Shown here: positions 8,507 through 30,229 of the stretch, piece after piece
Layout: every line of letters starts with the position of its first letter
Position numbering within the stretch: position 1 is the stretch's first letter
Assembly: GCA_028282325.1 (NCBI GenBank)
Contig: JANQID010000077.1
Span: 124,001 to 188,000 of the forward strand
Origin: Chloroflexaceae bacterium
Lineage (GTDB): Bacteria; Chloroflexota; Chloroflexia; Chloroflexales; Chloroflexaceae
DNA length: 64,000 nt
Direction of reading: 5' to 3'
Notes under the pieces: generated by a model
Told to the model about the DNA's origin: nothing
What the model saw: the letters and a program-made list of their open reading frames with translations, nothing else
The model's database searches: none
Position numbers and translations under genes: made by a program

Positions 8507-8814
8507 AGTTTAGCATCAAAATAATTAACTGTCAAATCTATATCAGTATATGAAAAATTTTATGGGGTATCCTGGTTGGGCATATCATACGCAGGTCATA
8601 ATGATGATGAAACAAAATTGCCGAAACCGGCTATGCGTGCTATAGTGTACATAGGTAGTTCGGTGTAGAAACACTATGTATACACATCGTCTTGGTATAC
8701 AATTAAGCGAATATCTCTGCGCTGCTCAGGTCTATTCACCACACTGTGATCAGCCTGACGGGCATTGTCGCTCAGAAGCAAGCAACACCAGATAGGGTCA
8801 GGAGGCAATACAAA

Positions 8815-9558
8815 ATGGTCGATGCTGTAGAGACCCGAGTGGCTAATCCACGCCAACGACGGCAAGTTGGCCTTTCTGGGCCAACCAACAAAGAGCGTGA
8901 CTATCTCGAAGTTATCTATTATTTATCACAACGCAACGAGCCCATCATCGCAGCCAACCTGGCGCGCTGGCTCGATCTTCAGCCATCCACTGTGAGCCAT
9001 GCTATCCAGGAGATGGACAAGAAGGGCTATATCCTGCGCAACGGGCGCAATACCATCTCACTCACGCCGGACGGTTTTGCGCTAGCCGAAGAGATTGTAC
9101 GACGGCATCGCATTCTGGAGCGTTTTCTGGCAGACATCGTCGATATGCCCTGGCATTTAGTACACGAAGAGGCGGTGCGGCTGGAGCATGCGCTTTCTCC
9201 AGCCCTGGAAGATCGCATCTTCACCTTGGTGGGCGATTCGGTGACTTGCCCTCATGGGAATCCAATACCTGGCAGCGGTGCGGGATATGCTGGCTCTACA
9301 CAGCTCGACAAAGCAGAGGTCGGGATGTTATTCACGATTCTGCGCATCGAGGAGAAAGCCGAAGAAAGCACCGATTTGATGCGTTATCTCGAGTCGAACG
9401 AGCTTATTCCAAACAATCAGTTCTTTATCCCTAATGCATCACCAGCCTATGGTATCACACTGCGGCGTTGCAACCACGACATCACATTATCGTCAGAAAT
9501 CGCTTCCCTCATATGGGGCGAAGGCGTGCCGTTTGAAGAGGGGGTGGCTTCACATTGA
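8815..9558 (+). CDS. DtxR-family metal-dependent regulator, second copy
   Basis: This 247-residue paralog of the divergent regulator carries a winged helix (TNKERDYLEVIYYLSQ, LDLQPSTVSHAIQEMDKKGYI) and the metal/dimer helix HRILERFLADIVDMPWHLVH followed by EEAVRLEHALS. A C-terminal FeoA-like region follows. The ATG at 8815 is preferred over a start at 8746 because AGGAGG lies nine bases before it. The N-terminus has about 25 extra basic residues (RVANPRQRRQ) before the HTH, absent from the other copy. It faces the first regulator across a shared region holding a DtxR-like palindrome. The two may sense different metals (Fe versus Mn or Ni), which cannot be decided here. Confidence 0.88.
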   Translation: MVDAVETRVANPRQRRQVGLSGPTNKERDYLEVIYYLSQRNEPIIAANLARWLDLQPSTVSHAIQEMDKKGYILRNGRNTISLTPDGFALAEEIVRRHRILERFLADIVDMPWHLVHEEAVRLEHALSPALEDRIFTLVGDSVTCPHGNPIPGSGAGYAGSTQLDKAEVGMLFTILRIEEKAEESTDLMRYLESNELIPNNQFFIPNASPAYGITLRRCNHDITLSSEIASLIWGEGVPFEEGVASH

Positions 9559-9889: not shown

Positions 9890-10018
9890 CTACCAAACGA
9901 TAATGAACAGGCCGTATGTCACCCTGAGCGGAGCGAAGGGTCTCGGCGTCCCCAACAGCCGGGATTCTTCGCTGCGCTCAGAATGACCGCTTGCGGTAGA
10001 TCCAAATTCGTTTGGTAG
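9890..10018 (+). repeat. R1 palindromic element, copy 2 (129 bp)
   Basis: It starts CTACCAAACG and ends CGTTTGGTAG, with the same interior GTCACCCTGAGCGGAGCGAA and CTGCGCTCAGAATGACC blocks as other R1 copies. It is 12 bp shorter than the 141-bp form, the loss lying in its left part. It is non-coding. Confidence 0.85.
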
Positions 10019-10302: not shown

Positions 10303-10653
10303 ATGACAGAACGAAAATACATAGCCATCGGCGTAGATAACACCGGACGTCTCTGGCAAGGACATTTTGGTATGTCCCCTGTGTATTACATCTACGACGA
10401 AAATGGGATATTGATTGATCGGCGAATGAATCCGTACAGCGCGAGGGAGGGACAGGAACCCAGAAAAGATCACGGCAATCCGCAATTGATCATCGATTTG
10501 CTACCGGAGTGCAAGGTATTTATCGCTCGGCGTATGGGGGACGTAAGCAAACGCGCACTGATGACGAATATGGGCGTCACACCGATAATCACGCAAGAAG
10601 AAGACCCGGACAGCGCCTTACGCGCTTTTCTGGGCGCAAAAGACGATGCGTAA
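10303..10653 (+). CDS. NifX/NafY-like (dinitrogenase FeMo-cofactor family) protein
   Basis: The 116-residue product begins YIAIGVDNTGRLWQGHFGMSP and continues with VYYIYDENGILIDRRMN, IIDLLPECKVFIARRMG and a final TNMGVTPII strand. This is the ribonuclease-H-like fold of the NifX/NifB-C-terminal/NafY family, which binds iron-molybdenum cofactor precursors. Standalone members also occur in non-nitrogen-fixing anaerobes with unclear roles. GLWQGHFG corresponds to the family motif that usually carries a His ligand. No nifHDK genes lie in the window. It precedes the family-5 ABC importer by 91 bases on the same strand and could be the first gene of that transcript. Confidence 0.82.
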   Translation: MTERKYIAIGVDNTGRLWQGHFGMSPVYYIYDENGILIDRRMNPYSAREGQEPRKDHGNPQLIIDLLPECKVFIARRMGDVSKRALMTNMGVTPIITQEEDPDSALRAFLGAKDDA

Positions 10654-10744
10654 GCGTGCGTTGTACATATCCTAAAGGGTATAGCCCTGCACTCTCCAGG
10701 CTGAGATGTAGGAGTTGGGTTTACACAGGATCAGGAGAACAACA

Positions 10745-12469
10745 ATGATGTTCAGACGAATATCCGCAATGCTCGTAGTCGCTCTGCTTGGCATATCAAT
10801 AATAGCTGCTTGCGGCGGCGCCCCCTCCGAAAGCGATGTTGGCGAAACCACCGCCCCTGAAGCTGCCGCAAGTGGTCAGGAAGCGCCAACGGACGCCCCT
10901 GCCGCAGCGCGGGACACAGACGATACGCAAGGACCGCAAACGGCAAGCAAACTCACCATTGGTATCTGGAATACTGCCGGCAATATCACCACCTATACCA
11001 TCGGCAACTCCTGGAACGACTGGGTCTTGTGGCTATCGTTTGACAAACTGGTCGAACCATCGCCCTACGTCAGCGAAGCGGAATACTGGCTGGCCGAGTC
11101 AATTGAGCAGATCAGCGACGATGGGCGTACCTGGGAGATCAAGCTCCGCGACGGGGTCACCTGGCACGACGGCACGCCGTTGACGGCCGAAGATGTCGCC
11201 TTCACCTTTGTCTACTATCGCGAAGGCCCGGCCAATCGCTGGACTCACCACTGCAGCGCCGTTCCGCGTATGGAAGAGGTCGAGGTTATCGATCCACTAA
11301 CGGTGCGGGTTACCTCGGCGAAACCGATGCCCAACTTCGACAAAGTCACCGCAGCCGACCTGCCGATTATTCAAAAAGCTCAGTGGGAGGATGTCGAAGA
11401 ACCGCGCCAGTTCACCGACATTGCAATCGGCACCGGTCCCTACCGCATGGTCGAGTACAAGGCCGACGAGTTCTACCGGTTTGAGGCCAACGAGAACTAC
11501 TTTAAGGGTAAACCCCTGGTCGATGAGTTGACGCTGGTCATGATCAAGGACCCGCAGACGATGTTCACCGCCCTGAAAAGCGGCGAGATCGACGGCGCGG
11601 CGCGCAGCTTACCGCCGGAATTGCTGGCGGAATGGGCCAATGATCCCGATATCAAGATTATGCATGCGCCCACCCTGTGGGGCGTGTGGTTGGACGTTAA
11701 TCTAGGGCGCGAGCCGTTCAATCTGCGTGAGATGCGCCAGGCGGTTTCGGTTGCAGTCAATCCCGACCCGATGCTCGAAAACATTATGCTCAACGAAGGC
11801 CAATCCGGCCTCCAGGGCTGGCCGCATCCCGACTCGCAATGGACCAAGCCCGACCTTGAGCAGCCCTACGATCAGGCCAAAGCGATCGAACTGCTCGATG
11901 AGCTGGGCTATGTGGATAGCGACGGCGATGGGTTGCGCGATACACCTGCTGGCGAGCCGATCGACTGGAATATCAAGGTCGCATCGAACCAACCGCTCTA
12001 TATCCGCGCTGCCGAGATGATTGTCAAACAACTGGCGGAAATTGGACTGCAGAGCCACGTCGAAACGCTCGATCCGGCCGCCTTCAGCAGCCTGTGGACC
12101 AGCGGTGACTACGATTTGCGCGTTATGGAAATTACACCACACGGGATCGCCGACCAGGACATGTTAATCATTCTCTACAAGGGCGATAACAACCGGGCGC
12201 TCGAACCCGACCCTGAGAAGGACGCGATCGTTGCGCGCTGGTTTGAGGCTGCGACGGTCGAAGCGCGCCTGGAAGTGAGCTACGAACTGCAGGAACTGAA
12301 TAACCTCTATCCCAACCGGCGTATGCTCTGGTATCCCGATGGCATCTTCGCCTATCGCTGGCAGGCCTACGACAACTACCAGCCCTCATCCGGCTACGGC
12401 ATCTATCACAAGTACTCGTTCCTGCCCAACGAATCCCGTGGGCTGACCGTTTCGAATGTGGAAGAGTAG
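10745..12469 (+). CDS. Family-5 (Dpp/Opp/Nik type) solute-binding lipoprotein
   Basis: This 574-residue extracytoplasmic binding protein captures peptides, nickel chelates or similar ligands for the ABC importer that follows. The start at 10745 has CAGGAG upstream and gives a clean lipoprotein signal ending IIAACGG, where Cys anchors the lipid. An Ala/Thr/Glu-rich linker leads into the mature domain, with family-5 features such as WEIKLRDGVTWHDGTPLTAEDVAF, AIGTGPYRMVEY and EAIELLDELGY-like segments. A hairpin-bearing 143-base gap separates it from the permease. Nearby nickel genes favour a nickel or metallophore ligand (inference). Confidence 0.93.
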   Translation: MMFRRISAMLVVALLGISIIAACGGAPSESDVGETTAPEAAASGQEAPTDAPAAARDTDDTQGPQTASKLTIGIWNTAGNITTYTIGNSWNDWVLWLSFDKLVEPSPYVSEAEYWLAESIEQISDDGRTWEIKLRDGVTWHDGTPLTAEDVAFTFVYYREGPANRWTHHCSAVPRMEEVEVIDPLTVRVTSAKPMPNFDKVTAADLPIIQKAQWEDVEEPRQFTDIAIGTGPYRMVEYKADEFYRFEANENYFKGKPLVDELTLVMIKDPQTMFTALKSGEIDGAARSLPPELLAEWANDPDIKIMHAPTLWGVWLDVNLGREPFNLREMRQAVSVAVNPDPMLENIMLNEGQSGLQGWPHPDSQWTKPDLEQPYDQAKAIELLDELGYVDSDGDGLRDTPAGEPIDWNIKVASNQPLYIRAAEMIVKQLAEIGLQSHVETLDPAAFSSLWTSGDYDLRVMEITPHGIADQDMLIILYKGDNNRALEPDPEKDAIVARWFEAATVEARLEVSYELQELNNLYPNRRMLWYPDGIFAYRWQAYDNYQPSSGYGIYHKYSFLPNESRGLTVSNVEE

Positions 12470-12612: not shown

Positions 12613-13590
12613 TTGGTGTACCTACGGATTGCCGCCCAGTATGTCCTGGTGCTCATCGTCACACTCTCGATCAACTTCGCGCTACCGCGGATTGCGCCGG
12701 GCAGCCCGCTGCTCTACCTGGTCGGCGAAGATGTGGCAACAATGACCCAAGCCGAACAGGATCAGGTACTGCGCGAGTTCAAGCTGGATCGACCGATAGT
12801 CGAGCAATTTGTCAATTATGCCGTCGGTATCGTGCAAGGTGATCTGGGTGTCTCAGTACGTTATGGGATGCCGGTCTGGGATGTGTTGCTCGATCATCTG
12901 CCCTGGACGCTATTGCTGATGGGTACATCGTTGTTGCTCAGCGCCTCGGCCGGCACGGTGATCGGTGTCTTTGCAGCCTGGAAGCAGGGTGGTAAGCACG
13001 ATATCGGAGCCCTGACGCTGGTACTCTTTCTGGGTTCGATTCCGCCGTTCTGGGTTGCGATGCTGTTGATTACCTTCTTCTCAGCCCAGCTCGGCTGGCT
13101 GCCCTCGTACGGCGCTTATGCCATCGGCGTCGCTTCCGGCACGCCGGAATACTATGTCGAAGTGGTTCGACGCATGATCATGCCCATCTCGGCCCTGGCC
13201 CTAGTCAACACCGGAAACATGTTTCTGACTGCACGCTCATCAATGGCAATGGCCCTGGAAGAAGACTATATCATGCTCGCACACGCCAAAGGCCTGCGCG
13301 AACTGACGGTGGTCTTCAAACATGGCTTTCGCAATGCTTTGCTGCCGATCTACACCAACGTGATGGTCAGTATGGGGCATCTCATCGGCGGAGCTATGGT
13401 CATCGAGACCGTCTTTTCCTATCCCGGGTTGGGCAGCACGATCTATGACAGTGTGCTGGCCCGCGATTATAACTTGTTGCAGGGTGCCTTCTTGCTGGTG
13501 ACAATAAGTGTCCTGGCAGCCAATTTCATCGCCGACATGGGCTACCCCTTGCTTGATCCGCGTGTACGACGACCGGGAGTGTCCGCCTGA
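12613..13590 (+). CDS. ABC permease, DppB/NikB type
   Basis: The 325-residue protein is the first membrane subunit of the family-5 importer. It has the N-terminal signature YVLVLIVTLSINFALPRIAPG, the domain-linker LDRPIVEQFVNYAVGIVQGDLGVS and, near residues 215-240, an ALEEDYIMLAHAKGLRE coupling motif that contacts the ATPase. The coding frame begins TTG-GTG, with AGGGAG about eight bases before; either codon could start translation. Its last base is shared with the ATG of the next gene, so the two are tightly coupled. Confidence 0.92.
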   Translation: MVYLRIAAQYVLVLIVTLSINFALPRIAPGSPLLYLVGEDVATMTQAEQDQVLREFKLDRPIVEQFVNYAVGIVQGDLGVSVRYGMPVWDVLLDHLPWTLLLMGTSLLLSASAGTVIGVFAAWKQGGKHDIGALTLVLFLGSIPPFWVAMLLITFFSAQLGWLPSYGAYAIGVASGTPEYYVEVVRRMIMPISALALVNTGNMFLTARSSMAMALEEDYIMLAHAKGLRELTVVFKHGFRNALLPIYTNVMVSMGHLIGGAMVIETVFSYPGLGSTIYDSVLARDYNLLQGAFLLVTISVLAANFIADMGYPLLDPRVRRPGVSA

Positions 13591-16151
13591 TGGCTCTTGC
13601 AATCAAGCATTCGCTGGCTACCAGCCTGAATACATCGCACGGGCGATTGCGGCTGGTCGGGATCCTGATCCTGACCGTTTTCATTCTGGCCGCTATCTTC
13701 GCACCGCTCACAACGCCCTACGAACCATCGGCACGCGTCTGCCCGTCATTCCAGACACCCAACAGCGAGCACCTGCTCGGCTGCAACGATGTGGGCCACG
13801 ATCTCTTCACCGAGATTGTCTACGGGGCCCGCGTGTCGTTGACGATTGGGGTGGTGGTGGCGATCATCACCACATTGATCGCGACGATCGTCGCCCTCGT
13901 GTCGGGCTTCGTCGGCGGCTGGGTCGACCAGTTCTTCATGCGGATCGTCGATGTGGTGATGGCAATTCCCTTCCTCCCGCTGGTGATTGTGTTAGGGGTG
14001 TTTCTGGGAGCCGGGCTGACGACGCAGGTGCTGGTAATCTCGCTGGTGATGTGGGCCCACCCAGCCCGCGAACTTCGCTCGCAGGTGCTGGCCATTCGCG
14101 AAAGCGGTTATGTCGAGTCCTCACTGGCGATGGGCGCCTCACAGTTCACGGTGATGCTGCGCCACATCCTCCCCGAAATCACACCGCTAATCGTTCCCCA
14201 ATTCGTGCGGGTGGCGCACAACGCTATTCTGATCGAGGCCGCCCTGAGTTTTCTGGGTCTGGGCGATCCGATCCAGAAGAGCTGGGGTGGGATCCTCTTC
14301 TACGCCAACGCCCGCGCTGCGTTTCTCACCGGCGCCTGGAGCTACTGGGTGATGCCGCCGGGGATCTGCATCGCACTGGTTGTGGTTGCCTTCGCTTTCA
14401 TCGGTTATTCATTGGGCGGCAAATCGGGGCAGATCTATTATCCGTTCGGCTCGTTTACGCTGAAACGCCGGCCATCGATCGACACAGGCGGTGCTAATGG
14501 TCGGCGCTTGCAGATTGAGCAGTTGACTACACTGTACTCCTCGTCCAACGAGACGATCAAGGCCGTCGATGAAGTTAATCTGGGGTTGCACGATTGCGAG
14601 ATCGTCGGGATCGTCGGCGAGTCGGGATCGGGCAAATCGACAGTGGCGATGTCGGTGCTGGGATTGCTCAAATATCCGGCAGCGATCGCCAGCGGGCGGA
14701 TCTATCTGGGGCAGGTTGACCTGCTCGATCTCGACAAGCCCAGCCTGCAACAGGTGCGTGGCAAACGACTGGCCTTTATTCCGCAGAGCGCGATGAATAC
14801 GCTCAACCCGGTTATGACCATCTGCGACCAGGTGCAGGAGGCGATTCTGCAGCAGCGCGACCTGAACCGCGACGCAGCCGAGGAACGCGCCCTAAAGCTG
14901 CTGAGCATGGTTGAACTACCGGACGAGCGGGCTCAGGCCTATCCCCACGAACTCTCGGGCGGGATGCGCCAGCGCGTGGTCACGGCGATTGCTCTGGCGA
15001 ACGAGCCAGAGGTGATCATCGCCGACGAGCCGACCACTGGTCTGGACGTGCTGGTGCAGAAAGAGATTATCGGGCTGCTGATCGACCTACAACGACGGCT
15101 GGGAATCAGTGTTATGTTCATCACTCACGATCTGCCGCTAGTATCCAGTTTTGCCGACCGGATGGCGGTGATGTATCAGGGACAGATTGTCGATATCGAC
15201 ACCCCCCAGCAACTGGCCCGCTCCGCCGATCACGCACATACCCGGGATCTGTTCGAGAACTTCCCCCGGCTCCAGGCTCCCAAGCGCTGGCAACGCTCCG
15301 ACGCCAACGGCAACACCATGCGCGAGTTGGCGCCGCTTCTGCAGCTGACCAATGTCTCCAAGACTTTCCACTCGCGCCGGCGCCTGGACTTCAAGCCGGT
15401 CGCTCCGATCCGGGCGGTCAACCAGGTCTCGTTCAAAATCTTCGCTGGCGAAGTTGTGGGCCTGATCGGCGGCAGCGGTTCAGGCAAGACGACGCTGGCC
15501 CGGCTAATGATGGGCCTGATCGACGTGGACGAAGGGGAAATCAGTTTCGATAGGCGTGAGATGCACAATCTGGTGCGAGCGGAACGGCGGGCTATGCTGA
15601 AAGACGTGCATATGGTCTTTCAGGATCCGTACCAATCGATGCGCAACGGGATGCGCGTGCGTGACATCGTGGCCGAGCCGTTGCGCATCCACGGCCTGCG
15701 CGATGCAGCCGAGATCGAGCAGCGTGTCACCACGGCATTGGGCGAGGTGCAGTTGCCGCAATCGCGCCAGTTCCTGGCCCGCCGAATCTCGGAGCTGTCG
15801 GGTGGGCAACGCCAACGAGTCGCCTTTGCTCGCGCTGTGGTAACCAACCCACGTCTGATCATCGCCGACGAACCGACCTCGATGCTCGATGTGTCACTGC
15901 GGATGGGTTTGCTACAACTAATGGAGTCGTTACGAGCCAATCACAACGTCGGCTATCTCTTCATTACCCATGATCTGGCACTGGCGCGCCATTTCTGCGA
16001 TCGGCTGGTTGTCTTGCAGCACGGAACAGTGGTGGAGTCGGGTCGCACCGAGCAAGTCATCCATCAGCCGGCTCACCCCTACACTCGCGCTCTGGTTAAT
16101 GCCGTCGTGGATCCGGCGTTCACTGAGCCAGAATTGGCTCAGCAAGCATGA
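13590..16151 (+). CDS. Fused DppC permease + DppD ATPase + DppF ATPase
   Basis: Three subunits that are normally separate form one 853-residue polypeptide. Residues 1 to about 290 are a DppC-type permease with GMRV-class loop MGASQFTVMLRHILPEI. Next is ATPase 1 with GESGSGKST (about 343), LSGGMRQRV (about 454) and VIIADEPTTGLD. ATPase 2 has GGSGSGKTT (about 627), LSGGQRQRV (about 736) and LIIADEPTSMLD, then a Dpp-type C-terminal tail (HPYTRALVNAV). All ATPase motifs are intact in both halves, so the fusion looks functional. It fixes a 1:1:1 stoichiometry and leaves only DppB as a separate membrane subunit. No stop or frameshift occurs at either junction. Confidence 0.93.
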   Translation: MALAIKHSLATSLNTSHGRLRLVGILILTVFILAAIFAPLTTPYEPSARVCPSFQTPNSEHLLGCNDVGHDLFTEIVYGARVSLTIGVVVAIITTLIATIVALVSGFVGGWVDQFFMRIVDVVMAIPFLPLVIVLGVFLGAGLTTQVLVISLVMWAHPARELRSQVLAIRESGYVESSLAMGASQFTVMLRHILPEITPLIVPQFVRVAHNAILIEAALSFLGLGDPIQKSWGGILFYANARAAFLTGAWSYWVMPPGICIALVVVAFAFIGYSLGGKSGQIYYPFGSFTLKRRPSIDTGGANGRRLQIEQLTTLYSSSNETIKAVDEVNLGLHDCEIVGIVGESGSGKSTVAMSVLGLLKYPAAIASGRIYLGQVDLLDLDKPSLQQVRGKRLAFIPQSAMNTLNPVMTICDQVQEAILQQRDLNRDAAEERALKLLSMVELPDERAQAYPHELSGGMRQRVVTAIALANEPEVIIADEPTTGLDVLVQKEIIGLLIDLQRRLGISVMFITHDLPLVSSFADRMAVMYQGQIVDIDTPQQLARSADHAHTRDLFENFPRLQAPKRWQRSDANGNTMRELAPLLQLTNVSKTFHSRRRLDFKPVAPIRAVNQVSFKIFAGEVVGLIGGSGSGKTTLARLMMGLIDVDEGEISFDRREMHNLVRAERRAMLKDVHMVFQDPYQSMRNGMRVRDIVAEPLRIHGLRDAAEIEQRVTTALGEVQLPQSRQFLARRISELSGGQRQRVAFARAVVTNPRLIIADEPTSMLDVSLRMGLLQLMESLRANHNVGYLFITHDLALARHFCDRLVVLQHGTVVESGRTEQVIHQPAHPYTRALVNAVVDPAFTEPELAQQA

Positions 16152-16279: not shown

Positions 16280-16954
16280 ATGCAAGTCTCTATCGAACGT
16301 GCAGGACTGGATACAGCCATACGAGGCGTGCTAGGCTGCGTGGTCGCCCCGTTGTTTGAAGAGGTGATGCACGCCTATCGGGAGTTGGACGATGCCGCAC
16401 TGGTGGATTACAGCACCTTGCTGGAGATCGCGGAAAAAACGAGCCAACAGACCCCATTCCACATGTTGCTGGAGTTTGCCTCCTACGGTCAGGACGACCC
16501 GCATCGGTTCACCATCACCCACAACGCCGTCATGCGGCTCTTCTGCACAAAGTACCACTTCGATTTTATAGCGAAGAATCTGCTCAATCCAATGCTGGTG
16601 CGCGATACCGCCAGCTTCCTGGTCAATCATATGCTCTTGCCTATGCAACTGAGCGAGTACGGCGGCCAATTGCGGGGAGAATACCGCATTGGCGGTCACA
16701 CGATGCATGTCTTTCCCCTGATCGTCGCACCCGATCTGGAACTCGCAAGCGATGCCGTCTACGGCGTGCACATGGGTTCTATTATTACGGCTTTGACCGA
16801 TGCGCAAATACGTATGATCGAAGCCCAGCTCGCGCTCAGCGCAGAATTCGGCTTCCTCGCAAAACACGTGAGCGAAGTCGATTTCACCGACTATCAGCAT
16901 TTCGGCAATTTTCATCAACGCATTGCGGAACGGCATCACAAGGTGTTCGGCTAA
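16280..16954 (+). CDS. Unknown 224-aa protein, paralog A
   Basis: I do not recognise this family. The product is soluble, with no signal peptide or membrane segment. Blocks shared with the next gene are TPFHMLLEFA..GQDDPHRFTITHN (TPVHFLRDF..LQDDPSNFTITHN in B), a central NPMLVRDTASFLVNHMLLP, YGVHMGSIITALTDAQIRMIE and HVSEVDFTDYQHFG. The repeated conserved His and Asp residues (ITHN, GVHMG, KHV..VDF.D.QH) would suit metal binding. GGAG precedes the ATG. It lies between a family-5 ABC importer and a nickel transporter plus CooC, so a role in nickel handling or a cofactor pathway is a reasonable guess only. Confidence 0.7.
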   Translation: MQVSIERAGLDTAIRGVLGCVVAPLFEEVMHAYRELDDAALVDYSTLLEIAEKTSQQTPFHMLLEFASYGQDDPHRFTITHNAVMRLFCTKYHFDFIAKNLLNPMLVRDTASFLVNHMLLPMQLSEYGGQLRGEYRIGGHTMHVFPLIVAPDLELASDAVYGVHMGSIITALTDAQIRMIEAQLALSAEFGFLAKHVSEVDFTDYQHFGNFHQRIAERHHKVFG

Positions 16955-16998: not shown

Positions 16999-17673
16999 AT
17001 GGACATCACCATTGAAACGCCTGGATTGCAGACATTGCTGCACAGCATGCTGAGTTGCCGTTGTCCGGTCGACGAGCCGACCGAACGGGCGTTGTTCAAG
17101 GTCTACTTCTCAGTACGCGACCGCGATACAGTCGACTTCAACGAGATTGTACAGATCGCCGATGAGAATCCGGAGCCAACGCCGGTGCATTTTCTGCGCG
17201 ACTTCTGCGTGTATTTGCAGGATGATCCCAGCAACTTCACGATTACGCACAACGATGTGCTGCGCTACTTCAGTACGACCTACCATCTCAACCGGATGAA
17301 GGCGCTCAACCCCTTGTTGGTTCGCGAACCAGCGGCGTACCTCTTCAGCCATCTGCTGGTTCCGGTACGTGTTTCGGTTGTGGACGGCAAGGCTGAAGCC
17401 ATCTGTAAGATCAACGACTTTTCAATTCGCTCCAAGAATATCTTTATGTCGTCGGAGTTTCCACCGATTGTAGAAGCCTACTATGGCCTGCATATGGGCG
17501 CCATCGTGACCACGCTGAGCAAAGCCCAGGCCCGCATGATCGAAGGCCATCTGACAATATTCGACGAGATTCCGTTTCTAGCCCGCCATGTCACGCACGT
17601 GGATTTTTGCGATTTCCAGCACTATGGAGATTATCGCGCGGATGTCGCTGCACGCTATGCACGTCATTTCTAG
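16999..17673 (+). CDS. Unknown 224-aa protein, paralog B
   Basis: It is the same length as the preceding gene and clearly paralogous, with the shared blocks FTITHNDVLRYF, NPLLVREPAAYLFSHLLVP, YGLHMGAIVTTLSKAQARMIEGHL and ARHVTHVDFCDFQHYGDY. The pair starts with similar TIETPGLQT/SIERAGLDT strands, then diverges to a Cys pair (SCRCPVD) here versus GCVVAP in A. AGGAG precedes the ATG, 44 bases after paralog A. Tandem duplication with retained His/Asp positions suggests a heterodimer or two specialised copies. Function unknown. Confidence 0.7.
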   Translation: MDITIETPGLQTLLHSMLSCRCPVDEPTERALFKVYFSVRDRDTVDFNEIVQIADENPEPTPVHFLRDFCVYLQDDPSNFTITHNDVLRYFSTTYHLNRMKALNPLLVREPAAYLFSHLLVPVRVSVVDGKAEAICKINDFSIRSKNIFMSSEFPPIVEAYYGLHMGAIVTTLSKAQARMIEGHLTIFDEIPFLARHVTHVDFCDFQHYGDYRADVAARYARHF

Positions 17674-17725: not shown

Positions 17726-19495
17726 ATGACGCGACCGATTGCGGCAATCGTTGTGGCGATTATGCTGTTGCTGGTCGGCGCGCCTGTACCCGGCGTGTCG
17801 GCCCACCCGCTGGATGAGTTCTCGGTGAAGACACGGATTATGTTCCAACCGGACGGGGTCAAGTTAAAGCTAGAGCTTGACCCTGGCATTCTGGTTGCAA
17901 CACTATTGCTAGAAGATCTAGATGCGGATGGCGATGAGTGGATTAGCGCAGCGGAGGAAATGGCATTTGCCCAGATTGTGGCCCAGGAGTTGACCGTACG
18001 ACTGGATGATCAGGATGTGGTGCTGCAAATCGTAAATATTGAGGTGGATCCACTCACGGATCTGATCACTGGTGTGGGGACGATCACGCTGGTCTACTAC
18101 GTCCCTGCCGAGCATGCGGCGGCGAGCGCACGCGAGCAGCACACCCTCTTCTATGAGAATCGCTTCTATGATGGATTGGCTCTGTATAGCCTGCATCTTG
18201 AGACCGACCCGGACGGCGGGGTTGTGATCGATGCCGCCGAACGCGACGAGATCACCCAGGCCCTGGTCGAGGTCGTGTACAGCGTCGATCCTGCTACCGC
18301 TATCGCCAAGGACGCAACAGATGCCGATCCGCCTCAACCCGCAGCGTTCTGGCAAGACCTCGATCTGACAGCAATCCCGGCGGTAGACAGTCTGATCGAA
18401 CGACTGCGTGGTGGCATCCTGTCCCCGGGCATCGTGCTCCTGTTGTTTGGTCTGGCGATGGTCGCCGGTGCATTTCATGCGTTTACGCCGGGCCACGGCA
18501 AGACCCTGGTTGCGGCCTTCCTGATCGCCAACCGGGGCACTCTCTGGCACGCGATCGCCCTGGGATTGCTGGTGACGTTAACCCACTCGGCCAGTATTTA
18601 TCTTCTCGGCGGGCTGGTGTTGGCAGCGACCGAGTTCTTTCTGCCGGGACGGGTGATCCCGATCATTGAGATCGCGGCCGGGATATTGGTGATTGGGCTG
18701 GGGATCTGGATGCTGTTCACCAGAATCTACGGCGGGGTGGCCGACCACGCACATGTACTACCGAACCTGGCAATTCTGGAACATCGCAATATGAATGTAT
18801 TGCTAGACGGCAACGCCGCCGATGCCGTCGATTTGCTTATCACTGCCAGCATTAGGCCTGATGTGCAGACCGCTATGGAGCGAGCCGGCGCCGACAATAT
18901 CAATATCTGCTCGCTGGGCTGCGAGACCCACGATCTGCTGCCGACAATCAAGCCCGAGCGCCTGAATCTGGCAACGGTCAAGCATGCCTTGAAAACCGGA
19001 GCGGTCGACGGGATGGTTGTGAGTGCTGGCAAACGCCAGACGCTCGTGAATCGGATGGCCCAGCGTATGGGCCGTTCCCCGGCTATGGATGAGCCGGGTA
19101 CGCTGGACGAAGCGGCGGCGCTGCTAATCGAAGCGACCCAGCGCTTCACCCGCCGTGGCCCGGTGCATATCCCGCAGACCGAGCTATCGTGGCGCAGTCT
19201 GGCATCGATGGGGCTGGCGGGCGGTATGGTGCCATGCCCAGATGCGCTGGCGATTTTACTGATCGCCCTGAGCATGGGCCAGCTTCTGCTGGGCCTGAGC
19301 GTCGTATTCTTCTTCAGCATCGGGCTGGCGCTGACCTTGATCGCCGTCGGCCTGCTGATAGTATCGTCCGGGCGTATGTTTGCGCAGTCGCCGTTCTTGG
19401 ATCGGCTTTCCGTCATCACACCCTATGCCGCCTCGATTTTTATCACATCTATCGGATTCTGGATGGTCGCTCGTGTACTAGGGAGTATCTCATGA
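17726..19495 (+). CDS. NicO/RcnA-like Ni/Co transporter with inserted CODH-like domain
   Basis: The 589-residue product starts with a signal peptide ending near VSAHPLDEF, then an extracytoplasmic domain with an EF-hand-like DLDADGDEWISAAEE, as in NicO-family proteins. The membrane core holds the family motif HAFTPGHGKTLVAAFL and, after a large insertion, MGLAGGMVPCPDALAILLIAL. The insertion (about residues 350-490) replaces the usual His-rich loop. It resembles the central Rossmann-like domain of CooS carbon monoxide dehydrogenase: NMNVLLDGNAADAVDLLI, NINICSLGCETHDLLP, TGAVDGMVV and RRGPVHIP line up with CooS segments around the ICCTGNE cysteine and the late VHIP strand. Other CooS cluster cysteines are absent, so catalysis is unlikely. 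The ATG overlaps CooC as ATGA. A start at 17588 is possible but would overlap paralog B. Confidence 0.8.
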   Translation: MTRPIAAIVVAIMLLLVGAPVPGVSAHPLDEFSVKTRIMFQPDGVKLKLELDPGILVATLLLEDLDADGDEWISAAEEMAFAQIVAQELTVRLDDQDVVLQIVNIEVDPLTDLITGVGTITLVYYVPAEHAAASAREQHTLFYENRFYDGLALYSLHLETDPDGGVVIDAAERDEITQALVEVVYSVDPATAIAKDATDADPPQPAAFWQDLDLTAIPAVDSLIERLRGGILSPGIVLLLFGLAMVAGAFHAFTPGHGKTLVAAFLIANRGTLWHAIALGLLVTLTHSASIYLLGGLVLAATEFFLPGRVIPIIEIAAGILVIGLGIWMLFTRIYGGVADHAHVLPNLAILEHRNMNVLLDGNAADAVDLLITASIRPDVQTAMERAGADNINICSLGCETHDLLPTIKPERLNLATVKHALKTGAVDGMVVSAGKRQTLVNRMAQRMGRSPAMDEPGTLDEAAALLIEATQRFTRRGPVHIPQTELSWRSLASMGLAGGMVPCPDALAILLIALSMGQLLLGLSVVFFFSIGLALTLIAVGLLIVSSGRMFAQSPFLDRLSVITPYAASIFITSIGFWMVARVLGSIS

Positions 19496-20286
19496 CCAAA
19501 ATAGCAGTCAGCGGCAAGGGCGGCGTGGGCAAAACCACCTTTTCAGCCTTGCTGGCCTATATTTTGACGGAAAACGGACAACAGGTTTACGCCATCGACG
19601 CCGATCCCAGTCCGACTCTGGCTGAGACGCTAGGCTTCCCGGCGCAAACTGCGGCGCAGATCCGTCCAATCATTGAAATGAAGGAGCTGATCGCCGAACG
19701 CACCGGAGCCAAACCAGGAGAATACGGCAGCTATTTCAAGCTTAACCCGCGCGTAGACGATATTCCCGCGCAGTTTTCGGCAACCTACCGAAATATCCGT
19801 TTGCTGGAGATGGGAGCCGTCAAGGGCGCCGGGAAGGGCTGTGCTTGTCCAGAAAACGCTATGCTCAAAGCGTTGACCAGCCATCTTTTGTTGCAAGAGC
19901 AAGAGACAGTCATTCTGGATATGGTCGCTGGCGCCGAGCACCTTGGGCGCGGAACCGCGCAGGCCGTCGACGCGATGGTTATTGTGGTCGAGCGTGGCTC
20001 GCGCAGCCTGAAAACCGCACGCACGATTCTGGCAATGGCTGCCGATCTGGGCATCACGAATATGTGGATCGTGGGCAACAAGATCCGCAATCCCGAAGAC
20101 CAGGACTTTATCGCCAATGCACTGCCGCAGGTGAAGATCGCCGGCTGGCTTCCTTTCTCCAACCGGGTGATCGATGCCGAGCGCAGCGGACTGTCCGTCT
20201 ATGACGCCGACCCTGAGTTTGTCGCCCAGGGTCGCAAAATTGTCGGGGTAATTCTGTCAAACGGAGGCAGCATATGGAAAACATAA
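19492..20286 (+). CDS. cooC: CooC-type nickel-insertion ATPase
   Basis: CooC is a MinD-type ATPase that loads nickel into carbon monoxide dehydrogenase. This 264-residue protein has the deviant P-loop GKGGVGKTTF at residues 6-15 (signature Lys included) and the CooC-specific C117-A-C119 pair in GKGCACPENAM, which holds a metal at the dimer interface. It also has VILDMVAGAEHLGRGTA, the family switch region. The ATG overlaps the stop of the NicO gene, so the two are translated together. No CODH catalytic gene is present in the window. The only CODH-like sequence is the domain inside the adjacent transporter, which makes a physical or functional link between the two attractive. Confidence 0.9.
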   Translation: MTKIAVSGKGGVGKTTFSALLAYILTENGQQVYAIDADPSPTLAETLGFPAQTAAQIRPIIEMKELIAERTGAKPGEYGSYFKLNPRVDDIPAQFSATYRNIRLLEMGAVKGAGKGCACPENAMLKALTSHLLLQEQETVILDMVAGAEHLGRGTAQAVDAMVIVVERGSRSLKTARTILAMAADLGITNMWIVGNKIRNPEDQDFIANALPQVKIAGWLPFSNRVIDAERSGLSVYDADPEFVAQGRKIVGVILSNGGSIWKT

Positions 20287-20909
20287 AGGCCACAACGCTC
20301 CTTATTATATCTGGCAGTCGAGGAGCGCCGTTCCTTCAGCATCCGGTCAGCGCCGGACGGGTCGAGACCATTGATATGTATGACCTGGATAAGGCAGCGT
20401 TGCGCAACTACAAAGCATTACTGATCCCAATGCATAGCGACCAGCGGCATCTAGTCAAGCATCGAGCCCGGCTCGAAGCGTTCTTAAGCGGTGGAGGGAT
20501 CATCATCTTCAGCGGCCATGTGGCGTATCCCTTTTTGCCTGAACTACGACCTTTTATTGCGTCTGACTATCGCAGTGTAAACGACCTGTTTATCTATCGC
20601 GCTGCTGAGCATCCGATCTGGCGGGATGTCCTTGAGGAAGATCTGACCTTTCGGAAGGGCGTCGCCGGCTTCTACGGACGTGGTTATAATCCGCCGCCGC
20701 CCAATGCGACAATTATCAACACCCTTGGGCCGAAACGCTTGCCGATCGATTATATGTACGTCCGCTCCAGCGGGGGCACGGTACTAGTTCACTCCGGCAA
20801 CGATTTCTGGAACTTCGCGCTCTTTCCTAACGACATCACTAGCGCCGCACGGATGCCAGGACAACTGCTGGAATGGATTGAAACGGATATGGTGGGAGAC
20901 GCAGCATGA
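20274..20909 (+). CDS. ThuA-like (class I amidotransferase-fold) protein A
   Basis: The 211-residue product has the alternating strand/helix pattern of a flavodoxin-like or ThuA-type amidotransferase fold: TLLIISGSRG, KALLIPMHSD, LEAFLSGGGIIIFSGHVAYPFLP and GGTVLVHSGNDFWNF. The usual nucleophilic Cys at the elbow after the GGG-IIIF strand is replaced (FSGHV), so amidase activity is unlikely. His and aromatic residues are frequent. It overlaps the end of cooC by 13 bases and the next paralog by 4, marking it as part of the CooC operon. Function unknown. Confidence 0.6.
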   Translation: MENIKATTLLIISGSRGAPFLQHPVSAGRVETIDMYDLDKAALRNYKALLIPMHSDQRHLVKHRARLEAFLSGGGIIIFSGHVAYPFLPELRPFIASDYRSVNDLFIYRAAEHPIWRDVLEEDLTFRKGVAGFYGRGYNPPPPNATIINTLGPKRLPIDYMYVRSSGGTVLVHSGNDFWNFALFPNDITSAARMPGQLLEWIETDMVGDAA

Positions 20910-21577
20910 GTCGTGTGGACAGGATCGCCATTCTTGATGGCGGAACCTACTATCACCATTTCGCGATCAACACGCCGGAGTATCGCCCCTATTTTGATCA
21001 GATCATCTATGCACCGGAGCTCGACGAGACGGACCTGAACCCGTTCAACGCCCTGATTGTCATCGATCGGCTCAATCCGGATCTGCTGCGCAAGCACGCG
21101 GCACAACTGATCGATTTCGCCAATCAAGGCAAGACGCTGGTCGTGTTCGGCGAGGTGGAGGCGCACACCTGGCTGCCCGGCGCACGTTGGGTTCAGCGCC
21201 CGACCAATTTCTGGTGGTGGCTGGAGCCGGGTGCCGACCCCGGGCTGCGCATCGTCGCGCCAGAGCATAGCCTGTTTCGCCACCTCACGCTACAGGATGC
21301 GACCTGGCACTATCACGGCCTGTTTCAGCCGCCTCTTGGCGCCTCTAGACTGATCGTGCTGCACGAGGAAGATCTGATGGACAGCCCTGCGGACGGTGAT
21401 CGCTACGACGCCATCCTGTACGAAGACCGCGTCTCGACGGGTGGTCGGCTGCTGGTGACCTGCCTGGATCCCTTCTACCATCACGGCAGCAGCTTTATGC
21501 CGGCCACCACGCGCTTCATCGCAAAGTTCCTGGAGTGGCTCCAGGTCGATCTGGCACAAGGCGCCGACAGAGAGTGA
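20906..21577 (+). CDS. ThuA-like protein B, paralog of the preceding gene
   Basis: The 223-residue protein shares the fold and order of elements with its neighbour: NALIVIDRLNPDLLRKHAAQL, a LVVFGEVEAHTWLPG elbow without Cys, then RLLVTCLDPFYHHGSSF. It begins DRIAILDGGTYYHHF, with paired His residues. Its ATG overlaps the preceding stop. Side-by-side paralogs next to CooC echo the 224-aa paralog pair upstream and suggest paired subunits. No catalytic assignment is justified. Confidence 0.6.
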   Translation: MSRVDRIAILDGGTYYHHFAINTPEYRPYFDQIIYAPELDETDLNPFNALIVIDRLNPDLLRKHAAQLIDFANQGKTLVVFGEVEAHTWLPGARWVQRPTNFWWWLEPGADPGLRIVAPEHSLFRHLTLQDATWHYHGLFQPPLGASRLIVLHEEDLMDSPADGDRYDAILYEDRVSTGGRLLVTCLDPFYHHGSSFMPATTRFIAKFLEWLQVDLAQGADRE

Positions 21578-22932: not shown

Positions 22933-24759
22933 ATGAGTGACACAACAAAAAAGACCCAGGAGCTATCCCTGTGGGAAATCATCAAGCCCGTAAACCGCCA
23001 CATTTATGCGGCAATGACCATATCAGCGATCAGCGCAGTGACCTGGATTGTCGCTCTGGTTTTGATTCGCCCCGTTGTGAGCGAACTGATGGCCCAAGCG
23101 CCCAACATTACTCGCCTGTGGCAATTTCTGGGTATCAGTATTGGCTTGATTCTGGTGGGGGTTGTGCTGAGTGTGTACTCCTTCAACTGGTCGCACAAAG
23201 GCGCATTTAAGTTGGAAGAGATTTTACGCACCCAATTGACCGCCCACCTTGCCAAAGTTCCGCTGGGTTATGTGATTACCACCGGCTCCGGGGCGCTGAA
23301 AAAGATACTGATGGATGACGTGCGCAGCCTGCACGCTTTTGTCGCCGACAGCACACCGTTGCTGGCGCGCGGCTACACCACCCCACTGGCAGCGCTGGTC
23401 TTGATGTTTGTCGTTGACTGGCGCATGGCGCTGATCTCGCTGGCCGTTTTCCCGATCGGGATGATCGGTATGCAAATTGCCTTCAAGGATTTTGCCGAAG
23501 GACGGGCGCAGTACGATGCCGCCAATGAACGCATCAACCGCACCATCATTGAATACGTGCAGGGGATGCAGGTGGTGCGTACGTTTGACGACGGCACCTC
23601 TTCCTTCAAGCGGTATCGGGATGCGCTGGAGCATGCCACCGAGTCACAACGAGCCTGGTCGGAAAAATCCCAGACAGGCGCTTTTATCGCCCGTACCCTT
23701 TTTGCGGCGCTGCCTACATTGGCAATTGTCACCCCGATCGGTATCTGGATGGTACAACGCGGGTGGTTGGATGTGCCGACGCTGCTCCTTTTTATTTTCC
23801 TGGCTCCAACAGTGGCTGAATCGGTTGTGCCACTCGTGTGGTTAAGCCAGCTTATTCAGATGTCCAAGGCCGGTGCCAAGCGAATTGGCCGGTTGCTTGC
23901 GGAATCGATTTTGCCGGAGCCAGAAACGTCCGTACGGTCGCGGAATGGCAGCGTGGCCTTTGAAAACGTGACATTCACCTACGCCGACCGCGAAGCCCCC
24001 GCTCTGCAAGATGTCAGTCTGTATATGGCCGCAGGAACCGTCACTGCGTTGGTCGGGCCATCTGGGGCGGGTAAGAGCACCATTGCCCAACTCATTCCCC
24101 GCTTTTGGGATGTGGATGCAGGCGCTGTGAAAGTTGGCGACATAGATGTGCGCCATATGAGCAGCGACGACCTGATGCAGCAGGTCAGCTTTGTCTTCCA
24201 GAATCCGTTTTTGCTGCACGACACCATCCGCGAGAACATCCGGCTAGGCAAACCGGATGCCACCGATGCGGAAATAGAAGCGGCGGCCAGAGCAGCCCAG
24301 TCCCACGACTTCATCCTCAATGAACTGCCCGACGGGTATGAGACAAAAGCCGGAGATCGGGGCACGCGCCTTTCCGGCGGGCAGCGCCAGCGCATTACCA
24401 TTGCCCGTGCAATTTTGCAGAATTGCCCGATTGTGGTTTTGGATGAGGCGACGGCGTTCGCTGATCCAGAAAATGAGGCCAAAATCCACGCGGCTATTGC
24501 CAATTTGACAGCGGGAAAAACGCTGATTGTGGTGGCGCACCGGCTGTCAACCATTCGCGACGCGCACCAGATCGTCGTGCTGGACAAAGGCAAGGTGGCT
24601 GAGGTTGGCACGCACGATGAACTGGTCGCGACCAATGGGGTTTACAGGGGGCTGTGGTTGAAATTTGAAGAGGCGCAGTCGTGGGGGTTACGCCGTACCG
24701 GTGAGGCTTCCGATGCTGTAGGTGCAACCGTTCCGGGCTATGAGCAGGCAGAAGGGTGA
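22933..24759 (+). CDS. ABC transporter, YbtP/IrtA-like half (pair A, subunit 1)
   Basis: The 608-residue half-transporter has an N-terminal six-helix type IV (exporter-fold) membrane domain and a C-terminal ATPase: Walker A GPSGAGKST near 375, LSGGQRQRITIARAIL near 480 and VVLDEATAFADPENE near 500. The ATAFADPENE ending, rather than TSALD, is characteristic of the YbtP/IrtA side of siderophore-uptake heterodimers, which import despite their exporter fold. AGGAGA precedes the ATG. The partner gene follows 12 bases on. It is close in sequence to the gene at 33807, so pairs A and C are duplicates. Confidence 0.88.
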   Translation: MSDTTKKTQELSLWEIIKPVNRHIYAAMTISAISAVTWIVALVLIRPVVSELMAQAPNITRLWQFLGISIGLILVGVVLSVYSFNWSHKGAFKLEEILRTQLTAHLAKVPLGYVITTGSGALKKILMDDVRSLHAFVADSTPLLARGYTTPLAALVLMFVVDWRMALISLAVFPIGMIGMQIAFKDFAEGRAQYDAANERINRTIIEYVQGMQVVRTFDDGTSSFKRYRDALEHATESQRAWSEKSQTGAFIARTLFAALPTLAIVTPIGIWMVQRGWLDVPTLLLFIFLAPTVAESVVPLVWLSQLIQMSKAGAKRIGRLLAESILPEPETSVRSRNGSVAFENVTFTYADREAPALQDVSLYMAAGTVTALVGPSGAGKSTIAQLIPRFWDVDAGAVKVGDIDVRHMSSDDLMQQVSFVFQNPFLLHDTIRENIRLGKPDATDAEIEAAARAAQSHDFILNELPDGYETKAGDRGTRLSGGQRQRITIARAILQNCPIVVLDEATAFADPENEAKIHAAIANLTAGKTLIVVAHRLSTIRDAHQIVVLDKGKVAEVGTHDELVATNGVYRGLWLKFEEAQSWGLRRTGEASDAVGATVPGYEQAEG

Positions 24760-24771
24760 AGAGCAACCGTC

Positions 24772-26517
24772 ATGATTTCCACATACCGACGAATGATCCG
24801 GGCGGCGGGTTCGCAAGCCCATATGTTGAAGCGAGCTGTCAGGCTCGTGATTCTCAGCGCCATTGTGCAGGGTATCGCCTATGGAATGCTGTTCCCCCTG
24901 TTTCGATCGCTGCTGACACCGGATGGGGAAGGTCTGTTGCTTTACGCTGGTATTCTGATCGGTTTCATCGTGCTTGATGGCATCTTGCGCCTGATTATTT
25001 TGAAAGATGATTGGGAAACGCAGATGCTGACGGGGCATGAGGCGCGCCTCAGACTAGGGGAACAACTGCGCCGGATGCCACTGGAATATCTGAACTCGCG
25101 CCAGGCGGGTGACCTCAACGTGGTTCTCAGTGGCGATGTGAATGATCTGGTCATGATTATGGGCGGATTGTACAACATGGTGCTGTATACGATTATCGCC
25201 CCTGTAACCACGATTGTGATTACGCTGTTTGTGGATTGGCGATTGGCATTGATGTTGATCGTGCTTTTCCCTCTGGCAACGCCTTTTTATCAACGAATTC
25301 GAAATATTGCCGCGCGGGAAAACCGGGTGACTTCGGCGGCTACAGCGCTGGTGACGGCGAATTTGATTGAGTATGCACAAGGATTGGGGGTTTTGCGAGC
25401 CACGCGTCAGGTTGGCACGCAGTCGGTGCGTTTGCAAAACTCGCTCGCGCATCTGCGCCGGCAGCAGACAATGGCAGCGAATTGGAATATTGCGCCCGGC
25501 ATCATGATCGCTACGGTGGTGCAGATGGGAATTCTGGTGGTAACGGCAATTGGCGTGGTCTGGATATTGGGCGGCGGTTTGAGTGTTGCCATAATGCTGG
25601 CGCTGCTGGCGATTATGGTGCGCTTTGCCGAGCCGCTCTCCCATTTTGCCAATATAGCATCCATGTTCGACTTCATGGAAGCGGCGCTGGAGCGCATCGA
25701 TGTCTTGTCATCTGTTGAGCCACTTCCGGTTAAGACCCCGCACGGGCAAATCGAGTCCTTTGACATCACGTTTGACCGGGTTGACTTTGTGTATGAAGCC
25801 GGCGTTGCCGAAATGAATGGCGATCGGGTATTGCGCGACATTTCGTTTACGTTGCCGGAGCGCAGCCTTACCGCGCTGGTAGGACCTTCGGGAAGCGGCA
25901 AAACGACCATTACCAAGCTCATTACGCGCTATGCCGATCCGCAGAAAGGGAGCGTCAACATTGGCGGCGTCGATATTCGCAGCGTGACGCCGGAAACGTT
26001 GATGCACCATATTTCGGTGGTGTTCCAGGATGTCTACCTGTTTGACGATTCGATTCGCAACAACATTCGCATGGCAAAGCCAGACGCAACCGATGCGGAA
26101 GTGGAAGCGGCGGCGGAAGCGGCCAACTGCCATGAATTTATCACTCGACTGCCGCAGGGGTATGACACAACAGTGGGCGAGATTGGCGGCTCGTTGTCGG
26201 GCGGCGAACGTCAGCGAATTTCGATTGCCCGCGCCATCCTGAAGGATGCACCGATTGTGCTGCTGGATGAACCAACCTCCGCGCTCGATACGGAGAGTGA
26301 GGTTGCCGTCCAGCGGGCGATTGACAAGCTGGTCGAAAACAAGACGGTGGTGGTCATCGCCCATCGCCTGTCTACGGTGGTGGCTGCGGACATGATTTTG
26401 GTGTTGGAAGACGGACGCATTGTGGAACAAGGCAAGCATGATGCGCTGTTGAGTGGAAACGGCCGTTATGCCGCCATGTGGAACGCCCAACAGCAAGCCC
26501 GTCGTTGGAAAGTGTGA
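24772..26517 (+). CDS. ABC transporter, YbtQ/IrtB-like half (pair A, subunit 2)
   Basis: The 581-residue partner of the preceding half has a membrane domain with LVILSAIVQGIAYGMLFPLF and VDWRLALMLIVLFPLATP. Its ATPase carries GPSGSGKTT near 371, LSGGERQRISIARAIL near 475 and IVLLDEPTSALDTESE near 495. This DEPTSALDTESE form is the IrtB/YbtQ-side signature, complementary to the first subunit. The C-terminus MWNAQQQARRWKV is shared with the gene ending at 37363. A metal-chelate substrate is inferred from family and from the MFS neighbour. Confidence 0.88.
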   Translation: MISTYRRMIRAAGSQAHMLKRAVRLVILSAIVQGIAYGMLFPLFRSLLTPDGEGLLLYAGILIGFIVLDGILRLIILKDDWETQMLTGHEARLRLGEQLRRMPLEYLNSRQAGDLNVVLSGDVNDLVMIMGGLYNMVLYTIIAPVTTIVITLFVDWRLALMLIVLFPLATPFYQRIRNIAARENRVTSAATALVTANLIEYAQGLGVLRATRQVGTQSVRLQNSLAHLRRQQTMAANWNIAPGIMIATVVQMGILVVTAIGVVWILGGGLSVAIMLALLAIMVRFAEPLSHFANIASMFDFMEAALERIDVLSSVEPLPVKTPHGQIESFDITFDRVDFVYEAGVAEMNGDRVLRDISFTLPERSLTALVGPSGSGKTTITKLITRYADPQKGSVNIGGVDIRSVTPETLMHHISVVFQDVYLFDDSIRNNIRMAKPDATDAEVEAAAEAANCHEFITRLPQGYDTTVGEIGGSLSGGERQRISIARAILKDAPIVLLDEPTSALDTESEVAVQRAIDKLVENKTVVVIAHRLSTVVAADMILVLEDGRIVEQGKHDALLSGNGRYAAMWNAQQQARRWKV

Positions 26518-26547
26518 AATTTACAGATATGAGCAATTAGGAGAAAT

Positions 26548-27300
26548 GTGTTGCAACAGGAAACCACGATTAAAACCGAACCTGCAATGAAGAAAGAAGA
26601 TCAGCTGATTGAGCCGCGCGTGCTCGACCCACGCACACAGATTTTGGTGCTGATTCTCATTAGCGTCATCTTTTTTTCTTTGAGTGATTTGCTGCTCGAA
26701 GTGGCATGCATGGTCATGATCGGCCTGATCTTGATCTGGCAGGGGATGTGGAAAACTGCGTTGAAATACTGGGCATTTTACGCTGGAACGATGCTGTTTT
26801 TTTTATTCTCGCTTGAATATCCCAATATGCTGATTTCAATGATTGGCATTCTGTGCGTTGCATTGAGAAAGGTTATCCCCAGTTTCATGTTTGCCACGGC
26901 CATTATTGAAAAAACCAAGGTGGGGAAGCTCGTTTCAGCCTTGCAAGAAATCCGCCTCCCCAAAGGTCTGATTATTGCCTTTGCGGTGACAATTCGATTT
27001 TTTCCCACTTTGAAAGAGGAATATTGGCTGGTGATCAATGCGATGCGCATGCGCGGCATTCGATTTTCATTGAAAAACCTGATCCTTCGCCCCATGTTGG
27101 TGATGGAAAGCATTCTTATTCCAATCATGCTGCGCATGTCTGTGATTGCAGATGAGCTGGCGGTTTCATCGGTGACGCGGGGGATCGATTCAAACAGAAA
27201 ACGGACTTCTTACTACAAAAACCGGTTCATTTGGATGGATGGCGTGGTGATTCTTATCTTCTCGGTTCTCGCTATTTTGGCAATTATTACTGGAAACTAA
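26548..27300 (+). CDS. ecfT: ECF transporter transmembrane subunit EcfT
   Basis: The 250-residue membrane protein couples the S component to the ATPase in an energy-coupling-factor importer. It has about five to six hydrophobic segments and the coupling-helix motif INAMRMRGIRF near residues 165-175, the A-R-G signature of EcfT. The start is GTG at 26548 with AGGAGA six bases before; an ATG at 26587 is the alternative. From here to about 29466 the DNA is visibly richer in A/T than the flanks, suggesting separate ancestry. The stop is two bases before the ATPase start. Confidence 0.88.
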   Translation: MLQQETTIKTEPAMKKEDQLIEPRVLDPRTQILVLILISVIFFSLSDLLLEVACMVMIGLILIWQGMWKTALKYWAFYAGTMLFFLFSLEYPNMLISMIGILCVALRKVIPSFMFATAIIEKTKVGKLVSALQEIRLPKGLIIAFAVTIRFFPTLKEEYWLVINAMRMRGIRFSLKNLILRPMLVMESILIPIMLRMSVIADELAVSSVTRGIDSNRKRTSYYKNRFIWMDGVVILIFSVLAILAIITGN

Positions 27301-27302
27301 TC

Positions 27303-28775: not shown

Positions 28776-28781
28776 TGTATT

Positions 28782-28814
28782 AGGTGACAGTCATGTGGAA
28801 AGTGACTATCACCT
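28782..28814 (+). promoter_or_regulatory. Hairpin between ECF ATPase and S-component genes
   Basis: AGGTGACAGTCA pairs with TGACTATCACCT with one mismatch across a nine-base loop, directly ahead of the TTTAGGAGGAGG ribosome site of the next gene. It could be an operator or an mRNA structure setting expression of the S components relative to the ATPase. Confidence 0.5.
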
Positions 28815-28830
28815 TTAGGAGGAGGACCTA

Positions 28831-29466: not shown

Positions 29467-29469
29467 TTT

Positions 29470-29600: not shown

Positions 29601-29622
29601 GTCTGATTTGAAGGAGAAAAAC

Positions 29623-30228: not shown

Positions 30229-30229
30229 T

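Follow-up and report, generated by a model that had tools for sequence, protein, structure and literature searches.

A NicO/RcnA-type protein with a CODH-like domain in its loop, encoded together with CooC

What could a piece of a nickel enzyme be doing inside a nickel/cobalt transporter whose gene runs into that of a nickel chaperone? The question is raised by one gene of the window, by which we mean the whole stretch of 64,000 nucleotides of Chloroflexaceae DNA that was analysed. An earlier note, made from the letters alone, had proposed that this gene encodes a NicO transporter with a CODH-derived domain in its loop, a proposal now supported by the family models PF03824 and TIGR01702, by hhalign and by shuffled controls.

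The transporter and its loop

The intact open reading frame and its parts are the following:

17726-19495 (+): NicO/RcnA-type transporter of 589 aa, its loop holding the CODH-like domain (PF03824, PRK10019, alignment with relatives)
17804-18400 (+): periplasmic N-terminal domain, residues 27-225, after a signal peptide (structure match 9gce)
18425-18742 (+): first helix bundle with the NicO motifs HAFTPGHGKT and THSAS, residues 234-339 (alignment with relatives, structure model)
18743-19186 (+): CODH middle-domain homologue, cytoplasmic loop, residues 340-487 (TIGR01702, hhalign, fold Z 14, 39 invariant residues)
18743-18754 (+): invariant D340-H341-A342-H343 where the third helix ends (five-member alignment)
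18908-18931 (+): invariant C395-S-x-G-C399-x-x-H402, candidate metal site (alignment; C399 at the CODH Cys295 position)
19190-19489 (+): second helix bundle with GGMVPCPDAL, residues 489-588 (alignment with relatives)

The protein matches the NicO family model PF03824 (E 2.9e-13; 50.2 bits, above the gathering score of 27.7) and, under the cut-off of that model, PRK10019 (E 2e-32). Its core is intact, with HAFTPGHGKT, THSAS and GGMVPCPDAL in the helix order of the relatives, and both family motifs, HAxxPGHGKT and GGxxPCP, are present. By model and motifs it is filed as a member of the NicO/RcnA family, nickel or cobalt transport itself being inferred. In the structure model, residues 29-198 of the N-terminal part match Ang-1, a copper-bound domain in a HupE/UreJ-2 protein (9gce, Z 9.9), and the same region (17804-18400) has a weaker likeness to ZrgA/PA4063. 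With this domain outside and three membrane passes before the loop, further passes coming after it, the loop is inferred to be cytoplasmic.

The helix bundles, the HAxTPGHGKT, TH and GGxVPCP motifs and the position of the cytoplasmic loop are shared with NicO/RcnA proteins (PF03824), as is the periplasmic N-terminal domain with the Chloroflexota relatives. Unlike them, the chimera has a folded CODH-like domain in the place of the His-rich loop and a cooC gene overlapping its own. In the alignment, the His-rich loop of the relatives sits exactly where the window protein has its insert. Such a loop is a common feature of NicO proteins, not demanded by the Pfam model: among 99 NicO proteins, the loops of the 94 without the insert are mostly short and His-rich (median 48.5 aa and 28.7% His), in comparison with 147-150 aa and 2-5% His in the five chimeras. 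The window loop itself, with 4% His over 150 aa, does not qualify as His-rich, which bears out the replacement proposed by the earlier note. The nearest described variant is the RcnA of cable bacteria, whose loop is expanded but still His-rich (PMC11247825).

Homology of the loop domain with CODH

Residues ~340-487 share homology with the middle Rossmann domain of Ni-CODH over its full extent. Within NCBIfam, the loop taken alone is matched solely by the CODH model TIGR01702 (E 6e-5), and the whole protein only by TIGR01702 (E 2.8e-6) and by the NicO model PRK10019; the curated TIGR01702 cut-off of 478 bits is unmet by the 25.8 bits of the window protein. A PDB sequence search places CODHs on top (E 0.0016), and the sensible tblastn matches of the insert across class and phylum are CODHs. 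Against a CODH profile, the inserts of the window and of L070, a Treponema relative, score 31 and 34 bits, respectively, in comparison with 6.3 bits at most for 400 shuffled copies. Moreover, hhalign gives a probability of 97.6-97.8 (E 8.6e-13, or 4e-12 with the five-member alignment) over ~140 collinear columns, which span residues ~238-394 of the reference CODH from Chloroflexota. What had been taken, from the letters, for separate central and late segments is one contiguous domain.

The case for homology is carried by these sequence statistics. When the full-length protein was modelled from an alignment of NicO relatives only, without CODHs, the insert stayed unresolved at low confidence. 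A model of the loop, whose input alignment included CODH sequences, reaches a pLDDT of 81.5 and adopts the CODH middle Rossmann fold, the outcome on which the earlier claim had been staked (Z up to 14 against CODHs, first non-CODH fold at Z 7.3; CODHs in all 50 Foldseek matches listed). Given the CODHs in that alignment, the fold shows compatibility and not independent proof. It could be argued that the resemblance is generic to Rossmann-like domains and reflects no common origin, and simple Rossmann-like domains of unrelated proteins do align, at lower Z (about 7). Such a view is scarcely credible, as each of the five inserts independently matches the CODH model and no other family well, shuffled sequences fail, the collinearity runs from the NL.VL....VN entry through the entire domain to the R..G...IP exit, and the partner gene is CooC. 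The refutation envisaged beforehand, an equally good alignment to unrelated families, did not come about, no unrelated family fitting as well.

The domain does not make the protein a CODH. It does have a middle Rossmann domain whose sequence and fold are homologous; the full set of C-cluster ligands (H261, C295, C333, C446, C476 and C526 in CODH-II numbering) and the B and D clusters are missing, so the window protein is no CODH. Of the three cluster ligands falling inside the middle domain two are gone, in the window protein with Asn at the His261 position and Lys at the Cys333 position, in agreement with the loss of cluster cysteines noticed before; the Cys295 equivalent is retained as C399. 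This loss of ligands excludes catalysis by the domain and makes docking or the handling of metal a reasonable, if only inferred, role, which is the preference that the earlier note had expressed. Compared with the middle domain of CooS (TIGR01702), the fold, ~140 collinear residues, the Cys295 position and a CooC partner gene are common to both, whereas the chimera has only one of the three domains, without B/D cluster or C-terminal domain, has lost the His261 and Cys333 positions, and lies in a membrane-embedded host protein.

The alignment of the five members contains 145 invariant positions, 39 of them in the loop, at 36-38% identity between the window protein and those of spirochaetes. The invariant loop residues include D340, H341, A342, H343, P346, N347, L348, N357, D361 and G362, and further on C395, S396, G398, C399, H402, K423, T424, G425, R477, G478 and P483; CSxGCxxH and DHAHxxPNL are invariant across all five chimeras. 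The CSxGCxxH motif occurs in none of the 94 other NicO proteins (0/94), and the aligned CODHs of Chloroflexota have no equivalents of C395 and H402 there. The insert might be a structural relic captured by recombination, a loop replacement without activity, to which the loss of two of the three ligands would correspond. We hold this improbable in view of 39 invariant residues clustered in motifs and kept over two phyla at 36% overall identity, and of the linked cooC found in all members with a readable contig at that point.

Several candidates were set aside. Weak matches of the insert in G422, G247 and G432 were dropped as unrelated or antisense frames, and the other phylum-level matches inspected were ordinary CODHs, not chimeras. 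Clade B CODHs are encoded beside ABC transporters and are possibly repurposed (PMC13056359). The chimera resembles them in that a protein of the CODH family has been put to another use next to an ABC transporter; unlike it, they are whole CODHs, with no NicO and, in almost all operons, no maturases. Descent of the insert from clade B is not claimed, since the CooS of Ruminococcus albus, itself not assigned to a clade here, does not come closer to it than other CODHs. This plasmid-borne CooS (L184:11716-13854) has a His-rich N terminus and degenerate ligands, with Asp at the Cys333 position, and adjoins an NMT1-type ABC transporter, being another candidate repurposed CODH.

Relatives, nickel cassette and CooC

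At least four further full-length chimeras, the relatives whose search the earlier note had recommended, were found, all in Spirochaetota (L070, L157, L196 and L197). A full-length single-sequence search of genome contigs returned no relatives, and an alignment of relatives was needed. With the NicO-relative alignment against GTDB species genomes, L070, from a Treponema MAG, was an outlier among the matches listed (E 2e-100, the next being 1e-49). A profile of the window and L070 pair recovered the other three in Spirochaetota, L157 coming from a 4.06 Mb single-contig genome (G967); a partial match, L198, ends with its contig where NicO begins. Genome sampling was partial, so the following frequencies are lower bounds: one in 274 genomes for the family of the Treponema MAG, five matches (one partial) among 394 genomes at the order level and, for Chloroflexota, the window genome as the only carrier among 158 and 400 genomes sampled. 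No homologue was found in the viral contigs and plasmids searched. This scattered pattern suggests horizontal transfer, which remains an inference.

The other genes of the run in the window are:

10303-10653 (+): NifX-like Nitro_FeMo-Co domain protein, opening the run (PF02579, E 9e-8)
10715-12469 (+): NikA/Opp-type substrate-binding lipoprotein (TIGR02294 nikA, E 7e-37, below cut-off)
12613-13590 (+): NikB-type permease (Opp2B nickel permease, E 1e-71, below cut-off)
13590-16151 (+): NikC-NikD-NikE fusion, 853 aa (53% identical to the L070 fusion)
19492-20286 (+): CooC, 264 aa (PDB match to CooC structures, tree)
20274-20909 (+): ThuA/class I amidotransferase-like protein, common with L070 (34% identity, E 5e-31; weak DUF4159 match)
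20906-21577 (+): second protein of the ThuA-like pair, common with L070 (37% identity, E 2e-42)

The set of nikB, fused nikCDE, NicO with insert, cooC and nikA is common to the chimeras wherever contigs allow, and was seen in two phyla: in the window, L070, L157 and L196, and in L197 to the reach of its contig. In L070 the genes are nikB, fused nikCDE, NicO, cooC, nikA and, further on, two ThuA-like genes, its NikA-type protein being 50% identical to that of the window. As a nickel-specific system the ABC transporter scores only moderately, with nikA and nikB under curated cut-offs. A sigma-70-like site at 10104 lies ahead of the NifX-like gene; a search for a nickel/cobalt riboswitch gave none, only a distant cobalamin riboswitch. 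Upstream of the operon, two metal-dependent repressors of the DtxR/MntR type with FeoA domains (7508-8191, reverse strand, and 8746-9558, forward strand) are candidate regulators. Between nikCDE and NicO, the operon encodes two similar proteins of 224 aa (16280-16954 and 16999-17673), without significant Pfam or NCBIfam match and with no counterpart at this position in the cassettes of spirochaetes.

The ATG of cooC (19492) overlaps the TGA of NicO (19493-19495) as ATGA (19492-19495), as the earlier note had pointed out. The only PDB match of the encoded protein is to the CooC structures 3kje, 3kjg, 3kjh and 3kji (E 7e-50), with Cys112 and Cys114 aligned; it carries the deviant Walker A GKGGVGKTT and a CxC (GCACPEN), in keeping with the sequence features of the maturase, and the CxC is retained in the CooC of L070 and L157 as well. 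CooC is an ATPase with a nickel-binding CxC site (Cys112/Cys114) at the interface of two monomers, and it has to hydrolyse ATP to deliver nickel when CODH matures (PMC6006190). The NicO-linked CooCs, three members being included in the tree, form one clade (support 100/99) apart from those of CODH operons.

For the earlier note, the overlap strengthened a connection of nickel with CODH, but a link to a CODH enzyme is not supported. The window genome (99.98% complete) contains no CODH and no hybrid-cluster protein (HCP), the CODH profile finding the NicO loop only, with positive results in control genomes; the genome of L070 (G504, a MAG) has CooC and neither CODH nor HCP. CODH presence was checked in two chimera-bearing spirochaetes, those of L070 and L157, leaving out L196 and L197, and one of the two was positive: a CODH/ACS operon lies 0.47 Mb away in G967, with its own cooC and CooJ- and CooT-like genes. 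That CooC serves a CODH of the same genome fails, then, for the window genome and G504. In the absence of CODH from the window genome it must have another client, for which the CODH-like domain is the simplest candidate.

Possible roles of the loop domain

What has been observed directly is how the protein is built, that its loop is homologous to CODH, that CSxGCxxH and DHAH are conserved, and that CooC and a nickel-type ABC importer are its fixed companions. On this we build the reading, to which we give a probability of about 0.5, that the His-rich loop of a NicO transporter was replaced by a dead CODH middle domain acting as a docking or transfer site of CooC. The domain would be a membrane-anchored partner or metal-transfer site, CooC binding being inferred, the metal either nickel or cobalt and transport either inward or outward. 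By imitating the natural client of CooC, it would allow the cytosolic chaperone to dock on the transporter, although the CooC-binding surface on CODH is not established. Nickel might move between the CxC site of CooC, the C395/C399/H402 site and the DHAH channel mouth; NikABCDE would supply the metal, and NicO with CooC would deliver it onward under nucleotide control, either for periplasmic export or into a cytosolic cofactor pathway. The cassette would in this way couple a nickel-type ABC importer, a NicO protein with a chaperone-receptor loop and an ATP-dependent nickel chaperone.

In the ArsA-ArsB arsenite pump, a transport-associated SIMIBI ATPase is encoded with a membrane carrier. By analogy, and only tentatively, the cassette could be a new type of ATP-energised or ATP-gated transporter, in which CooC would dock on the CODH-derived adaptor of NicO and load or drive it, nickel being handed from chaperone to channel. 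The encoding of a SIMIBI ATPase with a carrier is the likeness; unlike in the arsenite pump, CooC is a metal-binding chaperone, and ATP-driven transport by NicO has not been shown.

Two other roles, both possible but rather unlikely, have to be weighed against docking. The same conserved residues and gene association would fit a regulatory sensor of nickel or cobalt, or of the nucleotide state of CooC, that gates NicO without any hand-off of metal; the CxC metal site that CooC retains would be superfluous in a partner with regulation as its only task, and no test separates this from the docking reading. The cassette may instead supply nickel to a non-CODH cofactor or enzyme, the domain being its loading dock, with the neighbouring H/D/K proteins of spirochaetes as an example. 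Nitrogenase-like H, D and K genes lie divergent from nikB in L157 (13912-17396) and L198 (1158-4548), H- and D-like ones in L196 (3289-5432), and a CbiM-like gene follows in L198. The nearest models of the NifH-like protein of L157 are CfbC (the best), which acts on a nickel tetrapyrrole, and NifH, in both cases below cut-off. Together with the NifX-like gene that precedes nikA in the window, and the [NiFe] hydrogenases and several nitrogenase-superfamily genes (Oxidored_nitro) of the window genome, these neighbours keep nickel cofactor supply a live rival, but the Oxidored_nitro genes sit on other contigs and L070 has no nitrogenase-like neighbours.

It is still unsettled by what means CooC finds CODH and transfers nickel (PMC6006190). 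A single CODH domain, apparently excised and kept with CooC without the enzyme, points to a likely platform for CooC recognition and nickel transfer, and would make that question testable with a small soluble domain. The architecture suggests a new way to couple a metal chaperone to a metal pump. The chimera is real, conserved and, as far as available searches go, undescribed: no NicO-CODH domain fusion was found in the open-access literature, in line with the novelty claimed at the outset. It would be, as far as found, the first nickel transporter with a built-in metallochaperone client domain.

Elsewhere in the window, an ORF with a start near the window edge (71-1942) is a tandem fusion of two NMT1/phosphonate-type substrate-binding domains, followed by permease and ATPase genes. 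At 22933-37363, three pairs of half-size ABC exporters surround an ECF module comprising a CbiQ-like T component, two Trep_Strep-type membrane proteins and a double ATPase, which has the look of an extensive region for importing metals or metallophores. The cobalamin riboswitch (44140-44351, reverse strand, 49.5 bits) stands ahead of a gene (41055-43979, reverse strand) whose 974-aa product combines three periplasmic-binding (Peripla_BP_2) repeats in a single polypeptide, with FecCD/BtuCD-type genes downstream. Finally, a 141-bp tandem repeat in four copies (44409-44975), whose unit resembles a single copy at ~9915-9990 upstream of the operon, is perhaps an interspersed repeat of the window genome.
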